Assembly (NCBI RefSeq): GCF_020515525.1
Contig: NZ_JAIYEP010000046.1
Location: forward strand, 1-35,402
Direction of reading: 5' to 3'
Length of the DNA stretch: 35,402 nt
Source of the DNA: Rhodococcus yananensis
GTDB taxonomy: Bacteria; Actinomycetota; Actinomycetes; Mycobacteriales; Mycobacteriaceae
The notes under the pieces: generated by a model
What the model was told of the DNA's origin: nothing
Database searches by the model: none
What the model saw: only the letters and a program-made list of their open reading frames with translations
Part shown: positions 12,033 to 17,184 of the stretch, piece by piece
Numbering within the stretch: the first letter of the stretch is position 1
How the letters are laid out: each line of letters begins with the position of its first letter
Program-made: the position numbers and the translations under genes

Positions 12033-13307
12033 ATGGCAGCAGTGGGCAGGGTATTCGCGGCGCGACTGGCCGGATTGGTCGTTCTCGGCCCGGACGGAGA
12101 GTCGATCGGCCGTGTCCGCGACGTCGTGCTCACCATCCGAATAGGCAGGCAGCAACCGCGCGTTCTCGGCCTGGTCGTCGAATTGCCGACCCGCAAACGC
12201 ATTTTCGTTCCGATGCTGCGCGTCACCGCGATCGAGCCGGGTGCCGTCACCCTCGTCACCGGCAACGTCAGTCTGCGGCGGTTCACGCAACGTCCCTCCG
12301 AGGTGCTGGCGCTGGCGCAGGTGCTCGATTCCCGGGTGCGTGTGGACGATCCCGAACTGCCGGATCTGCACGATTCGGACGTGACGATCGTCGATCTCGG
12401 TGTCGAACTGACCCGCACGCGCGACTGGGTGGTCAATCGAGTGGCCGTGCGTCGACACCGTGGCAGGCTCGCGCGTCGCGCGCCGATCCACGTCGTGGAG
12501 TGGCAGCACGTGCACGGACTGACCCAGCAGGCGCTGGCGATGCCCGGGCAGGGGGTGTCGCAGTTGCTGATGCAGTTCGAGGACATGCGCCCGGCGGACG
12601 TCGCGAACGCGTTGCGCGAGTTGCCGGCGAAACGCCGGACCGAGGTGGCGGTGGCCTTCGACGACGAGCGTCTCGCCGATGTGGTGCAGGAGTTGCCCGC
12701 GGACGACCAGACGGGGTTGCTCAAGGAGTTGGGGCTCGATCGCGCCGTCGATGTGCTCGAGGCGATGGATCCCGATGATGCGGCCGACCTGCTCGGTGAG
12801 CTCCCGGAATCCGATGCCGAGTCGTTCCTGCAGCGGATGGACCCGGAGGATTCGGAACCGGTGCGGCGACTGCTCGAGCACTCCCCCGACACGGCCGGTG
12901 GCCTGATGACACCGGAGCCGGTGGTGCTCACGGCGGCGACGACCGTCGCCGAGGCCCTCGCCCGCGTCCGCAATCCCGATCTGACTCCGGCGATGGCGTC
13001 GATGGTGTTCGTGGTGCGCCCACCGACGGCGACACCGACGGGCCGCTATCTGGGGTGCGTGCACCTGCAGCGCCTGCTGCGGGAGCCGCCGGCGAGTCTC
13101 GTGGGCGGCATCGTCGACAACGATCTGCCCCGGCTCGATCCCGACGATTCGTTGACGACTGTGACACGCTACTTCGCGACGTACAACCTGGTGTGTGGTC
13201 CGGTGGTGGACGACGAGCAGCATCTGCTCGGCGCCGTCAGCGTCGACGACGTACTCGATCATCTGCTGCCGGAGGACTGGCGCGAGGAGGAGGAAGACGT
13301 TGAGTGA
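12033..13307 (+). CDS. PRC-barrel/MgtE-N/CBS protein without a channel domain
   Basis: 424 residues. Two beta-rich PRC-barrel-like halves (about 1-85 and 95-165) precede an MgtE N-terminal superhelical domain (about 185-285, repeats such as MRPADVANALRELPAKRRTEV and MDPDDAADLLGELPE), then two CBS motifs (about 290-415, starting DTAGGLMTPEP). In MgtE these domains sense cytosolic magnesium and gate the pore, but the five transmembrane helices are missing and the protein ends in an acidic tail. It is therefore a soluble sensor-like protein. Its stop overlaps the TTG start of the DUF1003 membrane protein by 8 nt, suggesting a partnership. A homologue lies at the equivalent place in M. tuberculosis (Rv1232c, from memory). 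Confidence 0.88.
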   Translation: MAAVGRVFAARLAGLVVLGPDGESIGRVRDVVLTIRIGRQQPRVLGLVVELPTRKRIFVPMLRVTAIEPGAVTLVTGNVSLRRFTQRPSEVLALAQVLDSRVRVDDPELPDLHDSDVTIVDLGVELTRTRDWVVNRVAVRRHRGRLARRAPIHVVEWQHVHGLTQQALAMPGQGVSQLLMQFEDMRPADVANALRELPAKRRTEVAVAFDDERLADVVQELPADDQTGLLKELGLDRAVDVLEAMDPDDAADLLGELPESDAESFLQRMDPEDSEPVRRLLEHSPDTAGGLMTPEPVVLTAATTVAEALARVRNPDLTPAMASMVFVVRPPTATPTGRYLGCVHLQRLLREPPASLVGGIVDNDLPRLDPDDSLTTVTRYFATYNLVCGPVVDDEQHLLGAVSVDDVLDHLLPEDWREEEEDVE

Positions 13308-13815
13308 CCGCACCGCCCTGGGGCGGCAGCGCCTCGAGACCCCTCAGACGTCCCGGTTCCGTTTCAACTACGACGCCGAGGCCGTGGGTCGCGTCAGCGA
13401 GTCGATCGCGCGTTTCCTCGGGACGGGACGCTATCTCGCGATCCAGACGATCGTGGTGGTCGTGTGGATCTTCCTGAACATCGTTGCGGTGGGCCTGCAG
13501 TGGGATCCGTATCCGTTCATCCTGCTGAATCTGGCGTTCTCGACGCAGGCCGCGTATGCGGCGCCGTTGATCCTGCTGGCGCAGAATCGCCAGGAGAATC
13601 GCGACCGGGTGTCGTTGGAGGAGGACCGGTCGCGGGCGGAGCAGACGAAGGCGGACACCGAGTTCCTGGCTCGGGAACTGGCGGCGCTGCGGTTGGCGGT
13701 GGGCGAGGTGGCGACGCGCGACTATCTGCGCCGCGAGTTGGACGACATCAAGGCGCTGCTCGAGGAGCCCGGTGAGACCGACGAGTCGGGGGTGAGGAGG
13801 ACACCGCGTCGGTGA
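13300..13815 (+). CDS. DUF1003 membrane protein
   Basis: 171 residues with the DUF1003 core: SESIARFLGTGRYLAIQTIVVVVWIFLN, the WDPYPFILLNLAFSTQAAYAAPLILLAQNRQ hairpin and a following acidic/basic coiled coil (about 100-160). There are two transmembrane helices (about 45-65 and 73-95). TTG 13300 is chosen because AGGAGG lies 7-8 nt upstream inside the preceding gene and the frame gives the standard LSDRTALGRQRLETP start. The overlap of stop and start implies coupled translation with the MgtE-N/CBS protein. The function of DUF1003 is unknown; a membrane partner for the soluble magnesium-sensor module is an inference. Confidence 0.88.
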   Translation: MSDRTALGRQRLETPQTSRFRFNYDAEAVGRVSESIARFLGTGRYLAIQTIVVVVWIFLNIVAVGLQWDPYPFILLNLAFSTQAAYAAPLILLAQNRQENRDRVSLEEDRSRAEQTKADTEFLARELAALRLAVGEVATRDYLRRELDDIKALLEEPGETDESGVRRTPRR

Positions 13816-13842: not shown

Positions 13843-13898
13843 CGGGCGGGATCACGGGACCCGGAGTTGCACACATATCACCGTCGTTCTGTAACCTG

Positions 13899-13917
13899 CA
13901 TCACAAACCGTGTGATG
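13899..13917 (+). promoter_or_regulatory. CATCACA-N5-TGTGATG inverted repeat before the transglycosylase-like gene
   Basis: A perfect 7-bp inverted repeat ends 3 nt before the GGAGGGGG ribosome-binding site. TAACCT (13892-13897) just upstream is a possible -10, which would place the repeat within the first bases of the transcript. It could be an operator or a leader hairpin. The TCACA-N5-TGTGA core has the wrong spacing for a CRP site (N6). Confidence 0.45.
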
Positions 13918-13935: not shown

Positions 13936-14883
13936 GTGGGTGGTGGCGTGCGTTGGCAGGGAGCCTTCGTCGTGCCGATGGTCGTGGCAGCGGGTCTCGT
14001 CGCGACGGCGTCGGCGCCGTCGAGTGTCGCAGAGCCGGTGGTGGCGAGCGCCTCGGAGACGTCGGCGTCGGAGCCGGCCGCATCGACGGCGGTGGGGGTG
14101 CTGCCCCCGTCACCCGCCGACCCGCTGTCTCCGGTCGGTCCGGCGGACTCGCCCGATCCGGGGGTCTCCCCCGCCTCGGCGGGTGACGGTTTCACGATTC
14201 TCGGCGACGGCCCGCTGGCGATTCCGGAGCTCGTGTACTACGCGTATCGCGCCGCCGAGATGCAGTTGGCGGTGAATTCTCCCGAGTGCGCGTTGCCGTG
14301 GAATCTGCTGGCTGCGATCGGTCGCTCGACGTCGGATCACGCGCACGGTGGCCGCACCGACGTGCTCGGGACTCTCGCGTCACCGGCGACCGCCCCGGAC
14401 GGTCGGGTGGGACCGATGCTGCTACCCCCGCCGGTGTGGCAGGAGTACGCGGTGGACGGCAACGCCGACGGCACGGCGGATCCGCAGAACGTGTTCGATG
14501 CGACCCTGGCCGCGGGCGCGTGGATGTGCTCGGTGGGCGGTCCGGTGCGCGACGGCGACGGGGAGGCACGCGCGGTGGCCCTGTTCGATTCGTCGCCCGA
14601 GTTCCTCGCGGACACGCGGAGGTGGTCGGCGGCGTACGCGAAGGCGACGGCGGTCGCACCCGCCGCACCCGTTGCGGTGCCGTCGTCCGCGGTTCAGCCA
14701 CCGGCGGCGACGACGCCGGGCACCGTGGACGTCGCGGCGACGGCGCCCGCCGTGGCACCGCCCGCGGATCCGTCGGGCGGCGAGGTCGCTCCGCAGGACG
14801 ATCCGCCGAACGTTCCGGCGTTGCCCGAGATCCCCGCGGAACTCACGGAGCTACCCTGCCTGGTTCCCGGGCTCTGCGAGTGA
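13936..14883 (+). CDS. Transglycosylase-like secreted protein lacking the catalytic Glu
   Basis: About 315 residues: signal peptide (MGGGVRWQGAF..., cleavage near ATASA), a long Ala/Ser/Pro linker, an SLT-like domain (about 93-235) and an Ala/Pro-rich tail ending CLVPGLCE with two Cys. It is a paralogue of the next gene: GPLxIP, LLAxIGR, HAxGG, VGPM and DGNxDGxADPQN align. Where the paralogue has IGRVESGHANGG, this one has IGRSTSDHAHGG, so Thr sits at the catalytic Glu position, and MQF of the substrate groove is MLL. The EF-hand-like calcium loop (about 174-185) is retained. It probably binds peptidoglycan without cutting it. Start choice between GTG 13936 (GGAGGGGG at 13921) and GTG 13948 is open. 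Confidence 0.82.
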   Translation: MGGGVRWQGAFVVPMVVAAGLVATASAPSSVAEPVVASASETSASEPAASTAVGVLPPSPADPLSPVGPADSPDPGVSPASAGDGFTILGDGPLAIPELVYYAYRAAEMQLAVNSPECALPWNLLAAIGRSTSDHAHGGRTDVLGTLASPATAPDGRVGPMLLPPPVWQEYAVDGNADGTADPQNVFDATLAAGAWMCSVGGPVRDGDGEARAVALFDSSPEFLADTRRWSAAYAKATAVAPAAPVAVPSSAVQPPAATTPGTVDVAATAPAVAPPADPSGGEVAPQDDPPNVPALPEIPAELTELPCLVPGLCE

Positions 14884-14910
14884 CACGCCCACCGTGGGCG
14901 TGACATTTTT
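14884..14910 (+). terminator. Rho-independent terminator
   Basis: CACGCCCA (14884-14891)/TGGGCGTG (14895-14902) with a 3-nt loop, followed by TTTTT at 14906-14910, immediately after the stop codon. It is the only classical hairpin plus T-run found in the window. Confidence 0.85.
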
Positions 14911-15017
14911 GTTATCCATCTCACAGTTCGATCGGTGCGCCGCACCCATGGGATGACACACGCCACGCGGGGCGACGCGGCGCGCACCCCTGTACTGCAG
15001 TTTCTCCCGCCACACCC

Positions 15018-15070
15018 GTGTCGGAACCCCCACCCGACACACCTTCGTGTTACATCACGGTTCAGTAACA
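15018..15070 (+). promoter_or_regulatory. Two consecutive inverted repeats upstream of the transglycosylase gene
   Basis: GTGTCGG (15018-15024)/CCGACAC (15034-15040), then TGTTAC (15048-15053)/GTAACA (15065-15070). The second lies about 20 bp upstream of a TAGCCT -10-like hexamer (15089-15094), the usual place for a regulator. The GTTAC/GTAAC half-sites recall response-regulator boxes of cell-wall genes such as those bound by MtrA, but I cannot assign the protein. Confidence 0.4.
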
Positions 15071-15119
15071 GAAGGGCATCGAATCATGTAGCCTCAGCTC
15101 GGCCATGTAACGGAGGCGT

Positions 15120-15150
15120 CTCGTACCGGGATGCCCGAGGGAGGTACGAG
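15120..15150 (+). promoter_or_regulatory. RBS-sequestering hairpin at the transglycosylase start
   Basis: CTCGTACC (15120-15127) pairs perfectly with GGTACGAG (15143-15150). The right arm overlaps the G of the GTG start, and the GAGGGAGG ribosome-binding site (15137-15144) sits in the loop and arm. A competing small stem GGG-ATG-CCC (15128-15136) lies inside. Formation of the long stem would hide the initiation site, so this looks like a translational switch. Confidence 0.6.
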
Positions 15151-16025
15151 TGGGACGGCACGCCAAGCCGCAGGATTCGAAGATCCGGCGCAACTCCGTC
15201 ATCGCAATGACCGGTCTGGTGCCGGTGGGACTCGTGGCAGCGGCAGCCACCACCGCCGGGGCGTCACCGAAAACCCTGCTGGGCATCCACCAGCAGGAGG
15301 TCGAGCCCACCGCGAGCGCCGCCACCTCCCACCTCGGTTCGGCCGTGGCGGTGCCCGAAGCGGTGTCCGTGGCGTCCACCGCGGTCCTCACCGAACCTGC
15401 CGCTGCGCCCGCACCGAAGGCCGCGCCCGCGGCCCCCGCTGCCGCACCGCAACCGGAGATCATGCAGGACGGCCCGCTCGGCATCCCCGGCATCAACTAC
15501 TCCGCGTACCTCAACGCCGAGCGGATCCTCGCCGAGGAGAACCCCGGCTGCGGCATGTACTGGACACTGCTGGCCGGCATCGGCCGTGTCGAGTCCGGGC
15601 ACGCCAACGGTGGGCAGGCCGACGACCGGGGCGATCTGCTCGAGCCCGTGATCGGCCTCCCCCTCAACGGAAGCCTGCCCGGCCAGGCCGTCATCTACGA
15701 CACCGACGGCGGAGCACTCGACGGCGACGCCGTCTACGACCGCGCGGTCGGACCCATGCAGTTCATCCCCACCACATGGAACCAGTACGCGGGTGACGGC
15801 AACGGGGACGGAGTGGCCGACCCGCAGAACCTCTACGACTCGACGCTGACCACGGCGCGGTACCTGTGCGACGGCGGACGCGACATGCGCAACCTCGCCG
15901 ACACCACGAAGTCGATCCTCCGCTACAACCAGTCGATGGCGTACGTCACCAACGTTCTCGCATGGTCGGCCGCCTACTCCACGGGCATCACGCCGAGCCC
16001 GGCGGACCTGCCTCGGATCCACTGA
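15150..16025 (+). CDS. Secreted lytic murein transglycosylase
   Basis: 291 residues. A basic N-terminus and hydrophobic segment (about 15-38) form a signal peptide or anchor, an Ala/Pro linker (about 50-105) follows, and an SLT-type domain covers about 108-285. Catalytic Glu is about residue 148 in IGRVESGHANGG, and GPMQFIPTTWNQY (about 201-213) is the substrate-groove motif. GDGNGDGVADPQN (about 215-227) is an EF-hand-like calcium loop, as known from the E. coli Slt35/MltB type. It should cleave peptidoglycan between MurNAc and GlcNAc to form 1,6-anhydro ends during growth. GTG 15150 has its RBS inside a hairpin, and the leader is structured. It is followed 25 bp later by mrp. Confidence 0.9.
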   Translation: MGRHAKPQDSKIRRNSVIAMTGLVPVGLVAAAATTAGASPKTLLGIHQQEVEPTASAATSHLGSAVAVPEAVSVASTAVLTEPAAAPAPKAAPAAPAAAPQPEIMQDGPLGIPGINYSAYLNAERILAEENPGCGMYWTLLAGIGRVESGHANGGQADDRGDLLEPVIGLPLNGSLPGQAVIYDTDGGALDGDAVYDRAVGPMQFIPTTWNQYAGDGNGDGVADPQNLYDSTLTTARYLCDGGRDMRNLADTTKSILRYNQSMAYVTNVLAWSAAYSTGITPSPADLPRIH

Positions 16026-16037
16026 ACCACCCCCGCC

Positions 16038-16043
16038 TACCAT
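16038..16043 (+). promoter_or_regulatory. -10 element (TACCAT) for leaderless mrp mRNA
   Basis: TACCAT is followed by 7 nt (GGGGACC) and ATG 16051. This decides against the in-frame ATG at 16042, which lies inside the hexamer. Confidence 0.6.
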
Positions 16044-16050
16044 GGGGACC

Positions 16051-17184
16051 ATGGCAGTCACCGAGTCCGACGTCCGCGCCGCACTGTCCCGGGTCGACGA
16101 CCCGGAGATCCGCAAACCCATCACGGATCTCGGCATGGTCAAGAGTGTCGACATCGCCGACGACAGCAGCGTCGACATCGTCGTCTACCTGACGACCGCC
16201 GGGTGCCCGATGCGCACCGAGATCATCGATCGCGTCACCAAGGCCGTCGCCGATGTCGCCGGGGTGGGCGAGATCCGCGTGGAACTCGAGGTGATGAACG
16301 ACGAGCAACGCACCGAGCTCCGCAAGAGCCTGCGCGGCGACTCGGCCGAACCGGTCATCCCCTTCGCTCAGCCCGGCTCGCTCACCCGCGTCTACGCGGT
16401 GGCATCCGGCAAGGGCGGCGTCGGCAAGTCGTCCGTGACGGTGAACCTCGCCGCGGCGATGGCCGCGCGCGGGCTGTCGGTCGGCGTGCTCGACGCCGAC
16501 ATCTACGGTCATTCGATCCCGCGCATGCTCGGCACCTCCGCGAAACCCACCCAGGTCGAGCGGATGATCATCCCGCCTGTCGCGCACGACGTGAAGATGA
16601 TCTCCATCGCCCAGTTCACCGACGGCAACACGCCGGTCGTGTGGCGTGGTCCCATGTTGCACCGCGCGCTGCAGCAGTTCCTCGCCGACGTGTTCTGGGG
16701 CGACCTGGACGTGCTGCTGCTGGATCTGCCGCCCGGCACGGGCGACGTCGCGATCTCGGTGGCCCAGCTGATCCCCAACGCCGAGATCCTCGTCGTCACC
16801 ACGCCGCAGCAGGCCGCCGCCGAGGTCGCCGAGCGTGCCGGATCGATCGCGCTGCAGACCCGTCAGCGCATCGCCGGCGTCATCGAGAACATGTCCTGGC
16901 TCGAGTTGCCCGACGGCACGAAGATGGACGTGTTCGGGACCGGGGGCGGCGAGGCCGTCGCCGAGCGACTGACCCGGGCGGTGGGCGCGACGGTGCCGCT
17001 GCTCGGTCAGATCCCGCTGGATCCCGCGATCCGCGAGGCCGGCGACGAGGGCACCCCCATCGTGCTCAGCGCCCCCGAATCGGCACCGGGTGCGGCGCTG
17101 TGCGAGATCGCCGAGAAGATCGCCGTGCGGCGACGGGGACTGGCGGGAATGTCCCTCGGGATCGACACCACCCGGCACCTCTGA
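16051..17184 (+). CDS. mrp: Mrp/NBP35-family P-loop ATPase (iron-sulfur carrier type)
   Basis: 377 residues. An N-terminal MIP18/DUF59 domain (about 1-95, with TTAGCPM) is fused to a ParA/MinD-like ATPase: deviant Walker A SGKGGVGKSS (about 119-128), DADIYGHSIPRMLG, and LLLDLPPGTGD as switch/Walker B. The family delivers Fe-S clusters to apoproteins. The CxxC pair that bridges the cluster between monomers in ApbC/NBP35 proteins is missing; the stretch after IENMSWLE reads LPDGTKMDVFG. From memory, the mycobacterial homologue also lacks it. Cluster binding may then rely on the single Cys of TTAGCPM, or the role may differ. It is convergent with tatB. Confidence 0.93.
   Translation: MAVTESDVRAALSRVDDPEIRKPITDLGMVKSVDIADDSSVDIVVYLTTAGCPMRTEIIDRVTKAVADVAGVGEIRVELEVMNDEQRTELRKSLRGDSAEPVIPFAQPGSLTRVYAVASGKGGVGKSSVTVNLAAAMAARGLSVGVLDADIYGHSIPRMLGTSAKPTQVERMIIPPVAHDVKMISIAQFTDGNTPVVWRGPMLHRALQQFLADVFWGDLDVLLLDLPPGTGDVAISVAQLIPNAEILVVTTPQQAAAEVAERAGSIALQTRQRIAGVIENMSWLELPDGTKMDVFGTGGGEAVAERLTRAVGATVPLLGQIPLDPAIREAGDEGTPIVLSAPESAPGAALCEIAEKIAVRRRGLAGMSLGIDTTRHL

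Follow-up and report, generated by a model that had tools for sequence, protein, structure and literature searches.

A conserved, probably non-catalytic relative of EF-hand lytic transglycosylases encoded next to its intact paralogue in Rhodococcus

Endopeptidase and hydrolase folds that have lost their activity are known regulators of cell-wall enzymes. The LytM-type proteins EnvC, NlpD and DipM combine a hydrolase fold lacking an active site with control of cell-wall enzymes, and DipM interacts with soluble lytic transglycosylases; these proteins belong to another fold family, however, and regulation is shown there, whereas it is proposed for the protein described here. In Neisseria, the lytic transglycosylase LtgA modulates its partner enzyme Ape1 (PMC7083599), but it was studied as an enzyme with its active-site helix deleted and is not a natural inactive paralogue. 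SltB1 is reported to bind PBP2 in a Ca-dependent manner, and a model presented in PMC12547810 places the EF-hand loop and the N-terminal helical domain at the interface. The present locus also compares closely to family 3 (MltB/Slt35/SltB), with which it has in common a lysozyme-like fold, an EF-hand-like loop and, in one of its two proteins, the MQF and RYN motifs. Among the entries listed by searches of open-licence PubMed Central, there was no natural, dead EF-hand lytic transglycosylase, and hence none retained throughout a genus after repeated loss. If the more tentative proposal given below is true, the locus is a natural experiment in which what such an enzyme does structurally has been separated from the reaction it catalyses. 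Since the genus contains near relatives that carry the catalytic Glu as well as others that lack it, the role of the Ca loop and of the non-catalytic body in EF-hand lytic transglycosylases becomes a directly testable question.

The window, a stretch of 35,402 nucleotides from Rhodococcus yananensis that was analysed as a whole, contains in order a CBS/MgtE_N gene (12033-13307), a DUF1003 gene (13300-13815), both assigned by domain search, the upstream gene U (13948..14883, forward strand), the downstream gene D (15150..16025, forward strand) and a gene taken to be mrp (16042-17184), with the presumed tatB and htrA next on the opposite strand. The two adjacent reading frames stand where an earlier note on this DNA had put them, on the same strand, except that the start of U moves from 13936 to the GTG at 13948, 12 bases downstream, since the V/M-R-W stretch beginning there is common to 16/16 full-length U, the window's included, an invariance that is partly by construction because we set the starts at this stretch in the full-length alignment. 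Both proteins have a signal-like N-terminus as read from the sequence, in agreement with the secretion signal noted before, and their SLT-like domains do align, in two segments of 37–39% identity (E 2.4e-16 and 7.3e-12 by sequence comparison); U is, on these alignments, a paralogue of D. D reaches 33.6 bits against Pfam SLT_2 (cut-off 24.3) and is the intact partner lytic transglycosylase, while the window's U, probably a secreted, non-catalytic transglycosylase-like protein, matches no Pfam or NCBIfam family, and an SLT_2 match is rare among U proteins in general (1/16, at E 0.008). Alignment to solved transglycosylases, proposed in the earlier note, worked for one side only: a profile built from D and the intact proteins related to it finds SltB3 (E 3e-8) and Slt35 (E 5e-6), whereas by sequence the U profile finds no transglycosylase and nothing meaningful among solved structures. 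The window's genome also holds a third, more distant copy (G000:C6:61395-61931, L002), which is intact-looking and has the motifs VESNHG and GPLQF.

We focus first on the catalytic position and the substrate cleft. In D, residue 148 (GAG, 15591..15593, forward strand) is presumably the catalytic Glu, given its invariance in D and relatives and the ES motif, which we take to be the mark of that residue; sequence alignments to SltB3 and Slt35 do not cover the position. The aligned codon of U, residue 128 (14329..14331, forward strand), is ACG for Thr, and the motif pair IGRVESGHANGG versus IGRSTSDHAHGG, by which the earlier note told the two proteins apart, is thus correct, as is the loss of MQF, which reads MLL with Leu at the substrate-contact Gln position (14419..14421, forward strand). 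By alignment, Asp takes the place of the −1-subsite Asn (residue 214, 14587..14589, forward strand), turning RYN into LFD. Among 17 U, the catalytic position is occupied by Glu in 5, Thr in 3, Ser in 3, Asn in 3, Ala in 2 and Gly in 1, where the Glu of genome G005 was read separately and could not be aligned at this position in the residue census. With six residue types, this column ranks first in entropy of the 148 domain columns, i.e. it is the most variable, and 58/148 columns are invariant in U, including five EF-hand positions and both Cys. In 15 U the GP motif follows the catalytic position after 27 residues, and in the other 2 after 28, versus 53 in 17/17 D; a cleft segment of 25–26 residues is missing from 17/17 U, 26 of them from the lysozyme-fold domain of the window's U (14203..14646, forward strand; structure model). 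The shortened cleft, the change of RYN and the variation of the Glu state among species go beyond what the earlier note had noticed.

The remaining groove positions were taken from the SltB2 structure paper (PMC12547810) and mapped by counting along the SltB3 alignment. D keeps every one of them, together with the catalytic Glu and the Gln, in 17/17 genomes. In U (n=17), Gln persists in 7 (lost from 10/17), the Thr188 equivalent in 1 (lost from 16/17), Asn302, at the −1 subsite, in 2 (lost from 15/17), and Phe, Tyr218 and Tyr301 in none. Outside the Rhodococcus group, Glu is present in 115/115 domains reaching that position and Gln and Phe in 117/117, with few exceptions elsewhere (Tyr218 is Leu in 4, Thr188 is Ser in 1, Asn302 is Gly in 1 and Tyr307 is Phe in 1); these 117 are distinct sequences gathered with a profile built on U and D, a set in which mycobacteria and Nocardia-like genomes are strongly represented, and more divergent Glu-less copies could escape such a search. 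Compared with family 3 as enzymes, the window's U thus lacks the catalytic Glu, the Gln-Phe and Tyr-Asn motifs and part of the cleft; compared by fold and descent, it has the EF-hand-like loop and the lysozyme-like fold and lacks the Pfam SLT_2 match. The idea that U competes for the wall, raised in the earlier note, is weakened by these data, since the groove is eroded and the residues that would hold the sugar are mostly gone. A related reading, in which U is a peptidoglycan lectin or decoy whose old groove binds glycan strands uncut and shields them from D, can draw on the lysozyme fold retained in the model and on an aromatic residue at the Tyr307 equivalent of 17/17 U (Tyr in 12, Phe in the other 5), as well as on Trp in place of Tyr218 in 11/17, but the groove losses and the 25–26 missing cleft residues speak against it, and we consider it unlikely.

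It is also conceivable that catalysis persists in U, by means of an acid that has moved or with another substrate. Five of the 17 U retain both Glu and Gln, and two positions bordering the former groove have become acidic: residue 214, which is Asp in 15/17 and Asn in 2/17, and residue 218, beside the groove Tyr position (Glu in the window, 14599..14601, forward strand, by alignment), which is Glu in 10, Asp in 6 and Gln in 1 (n=17), compared with an acidic residue in 8/128 readable other domains. At least one of the two is acidic in each of the 17 U. Neither is invariant, however: the U of G013 combines Ala128 with Asn214 and that of G011 combines Gly128 with Gln218, and U has lost part of the cleft along with groove residues, with six residue types at position 128. 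As to the alternative acid that the earlier note saw as a possible refutation, E94, E104 and the EF-hand Asp residues are invariant in U but are already present in intact upstream copies and hence not new, whereas 214 and 218 are. The note's broader statement, that catalysis was lost with fold and Ca site kept, stands as regards the known catalytic residues, the modelled fold and the invariant EF-hand, and is qualified by the new acids. Because of these two positions, our confidence that U is non-catalytic was lowered by a small step and that in persisting catalysis was raised, although the latter still appears distinctly improbable; U is most probably functional and non-catalytic.

U, with its altered cleft, recurs in 17/18 genomes, more than chance would give, of its Rhodococcus group, which includes R. 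coprophilus, R. gordoniae, R. ruber, R. aetherivorans and R. zopfii. The sole genome without it, G012, is also without D (it has a distant paralogue only), mrp and CBS, the latter two of which were both found by the same search in the controls G001 and G009; G012 thus probably lacks the whole locus owing to an assembly gap, and it was left out of the count because CBS and mrp are absent too. A family-wide search over 401 genomes, sampled from the larger family, gave matches in 139/401 at E 1e-24, with U-type scores (E 2e-78 or better) in the Rhodococcus group only and 2e-46 as the next best; catalytic residues were read in the fetched loci among these. A pair of lytic transglycosylases lies between DUF1003 and mrp in 10/20 outside loci (L045, L046, L048, L146, L157, L159, L160, L161, L164 and L165), and a single copy occupies this site in mycobacteria (L049, L052, L054), a Gordonia MAG (L082) and G026 (L163). 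The upstream copy is intact in R. koreensis (L045), Rhodococcus sp. HNM0569 (L046), Skermania (L048) and G062 (L164). The upstream enzymes of L045, L048 and L164 have the same locus order as U and fall in the same clade, the mycobacterial single enzymes have the same locus order, and all six keep Glu, MQF and RYN, unlike the window's U. In a domain tree of 61 rows, built without the catalytic columns and without the segment missing from U, 25 sequences (downstream copies and three mycobacterial ones) are split from 36 (upstream copies and U) with support 96/84. This tree thus puts U together with the intact upstream member of the tandem pair encoded in the order CBS-DUF1003-LT-LT-mrp; the stem branch of U is long (1.06), which makes its placement less sure. 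The survey for a conserved pair suggested in the earlier note thus shows a tandem arrangement spanning several genera, whereas the Glu-less form was seen in one Rhodococcus group only. In another genus, the upstream copy of G076 (L146:3323-4240) keeps Glu and MQF but has RYG in place of RYN and a shorter cleft segment, and may represent the same kind of erosion at an early stage, begun independently. A contig titled as a Bifidobacterium breve MAG (L074) carries a mycobacterial-type copy, and this bin is probably mislabelled or contaminated.

The catalytic Glu is gone from 12/17 U, and the data point to at least three losses if it was never regained. In a tree of five neighbour proteins, with U and D excluded, the Thr-bearing G003 and G015 cluster with the Glu-bearing G007 and G009 (support 100/100). 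The window, with Thr, joins three Glu-keepers, G001, G005 and G010 (99/98), and nine genomes without Glu form one clade (98/96). A single Glu change, which would hold the five Glu-keepers together, is rejected by the AU test at p 5e-10 for the neighbour genes; for U the rejection is weaker (p 0.008), and the tree of the U gene alone lacks the clade of nine genomes without Glu. Unrooted parsimony within the group requires 2 Glu changes; taking Glu as ancestral and excluding regain gives 3 losses. The Glu codon is GAA in all five Glu-keeping U, and since GAA accounts for 32–37% of the codons for Glu in four Glu-keeping loci in which they were counted, this weakly supports retention over regain. 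No U has Glu without Gln, whereas those of G003 and G015 lack Glu and keep Gln, which suggests that Glu goes before Gln.

Loss of the Glu is accompanied by no visible release of the U domain from purifying selection, as estimated by dN/dS. Values for the U domain are 0.07–0.10 in three Glu-keeping pairs, 0.03–0.22 in eight Glu-less pairs and 0.20 in two mixed ones, as compared with 0.07–0.17 for the D domain over 13 pairs; the 13 pairs were chosen by us and some have branches in common, and dS is large in the distant ones. The U domain evolves faster than that of D in several pairs, and the tail and N-terminus of U (0.11–0.52, one tail value not being computable) evolve faster than its domain. 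An artefact or frameshift was rejected on the open reading frame in 16/16 full-length copies, and gene decay was ruled out by the low dN/dS and the invariant columns. That U is a decaying relic heading for loss, as its long stem branch and the repeated loss of catalytic residues could be taken to mean, is therefore very unlikely in view of the open frames, the low dN/dS, the 58 invariant domain columns and an invariant promoter element described below. U thus shows one mark of a pseudoenzyme, namely catalytic residues lost with the rest under selection.

What selection appears to preserve is the body of the protein. The lysozyme-like fold of U is confidently modelled, and its EF-hand-like loop (D1, N3, D5, D9, D15; 14455..14499, forward strand) is fixed at positions 1, 3, 5, 9 and 15 in 17/17 U, of which D1, N3, D5 and D15 correspond to the ligand positions given in PMC12547810. 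Retention of this loop, as claimed earlier, stands in both proteins, that of D (15795..15839, forward strand) being read from sequence and aligned with SltB3 and Slt35. Outside the Rhodococcus group, position 3 varies (75 N, 20 D, 15 K and few others). Behind a Pro/Ala-rich tail, the C-terminus of U carries a CLVPGLC motif (14857..14877, forward strand), which is CLVPxxC in 16/16 full-length U, every letter but xx being invariant. Related Cys motifs occur in the tails of several upstream copies, as LPCLxFC at L045, L046, L163, L164 and L165 and in looser PC-x3-C forms at L048, L136, L146, L157 and L160.

Because the known cutting site is lost, yet the predicted shape, the Ca loop and the gene switch are preserved, U is probably a docking or control protein and not a cutter. 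Selection would then keep a surface and not a pocket: the Ca loop and tail would anchor U to the machinery of peptidoglycan synthesis or else to D, and the docked protein would be either an adaptor or a brake occupying the docking place that an active enzyme would use. That U tethers or regulates its partner, as the earlier note put forward, is possible. Our overall reading, which we regard as evenly balanced, is that U belongs to the actinobacterial branch of EF-hand family 3 (MltB/SltB-like) lytic transglycosylases as a non-catalytic, probably secreted protein under selection, and survives as a docking protein. Docking as such, suggested by analogy, falls a little short of even as the surviving function, and docking specifically by the Ca loop is doubtful. 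In a more tentative proposal, the ancestral upstream enzyme would have had a second, non-catalytic role in docking through the Ca loop and tail, and three lineages within one Rhodococcus group would independently have dropped catalysis, leaving a docking module beside an active partner. No counterpart of the N-terminal helical domain of SltB1 is seen in U. By analogy again, the Ca loop of U may be kept for stability alone. In a study of Slt35, the EF-hand Ca loop was reportedly linked to stability. A similar statement is contained in PMC13134497.

Finally, we consider how the two genes are controlled. Upstream of U lies a CRP-like element, TGTAACCTGCATCACA (13890..13905, forward strand), with one mismatch to TGTGAN6TCACA, and TGTAA-N6-TCACA is found there in 16/16 Rhodococcus-group genomes examined, within a region that is otherwise poorly alignable. 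A scan of the whole window with the CRP pattern gave 8 matches versus 8.3 in shuffles, so that the promoter claim rests on this conservation across species. The same element lies 5′ of the upstream copy in 7/21 outside loci, without mismatch in L045, L163, L164 and L165 and with one mismatch in L046, L159 and L146, and is absent from 14/21. Rv1230c of M. tuberculosis is presumably the single mycobacterial enzyme of this locus, which fits the mycobacterial locus order. For Rv1230c, PMC4117774 gives a CRP ChIP site and a changed transcript in a crp mutant.

D, on the other hand, has a conserved upstream block of its own, GTTACATCAC...TAAC (15049-15070), in 15/15 Rhodococcus-group loci, while GTTACATCACG was not found with ≤1 mismatch in the 21 outside loci scanned. 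Separate control of D via this block is possible, and U and D thus need not be made together. This bears on the proposal that U is a dedicated regulator of D, an inhibitor or activator acting through a pseudo-homodimer. The two genes adjoin in 15/15 Rhodococcus-group genomes that have both on one contig, the window's included, and their Ca-loop sequences are similar; adjacency is, however, also explained by an ancestral tandem pair, and joint production is not required given D's own block, so that we hold such a regulator to be improbable. It ranks, like the lectin, the persisting catalysis and the relic, below a docking adaptor or brake. The reverse strand of the D block resembles the direct repeat for MtrA given in PMC11215152 (7 bp, with a spacer of 4 bp). 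An Rfam search of the window returned nothing at gathering thresholds and one weak, chance-level match near U. The 5′ leader of D contains a 7-bp hairpin (15115-15135), just ahead of a Shine-Dalgarno-like stretch, all pairs of which are kept in 8 sequences chosen from 15, with two-sided changes at one pair. In M. tuberculosis, a strongly transcribed predicted RNA lies between Rv1230c and Rv1231c, according to PMC3388012.
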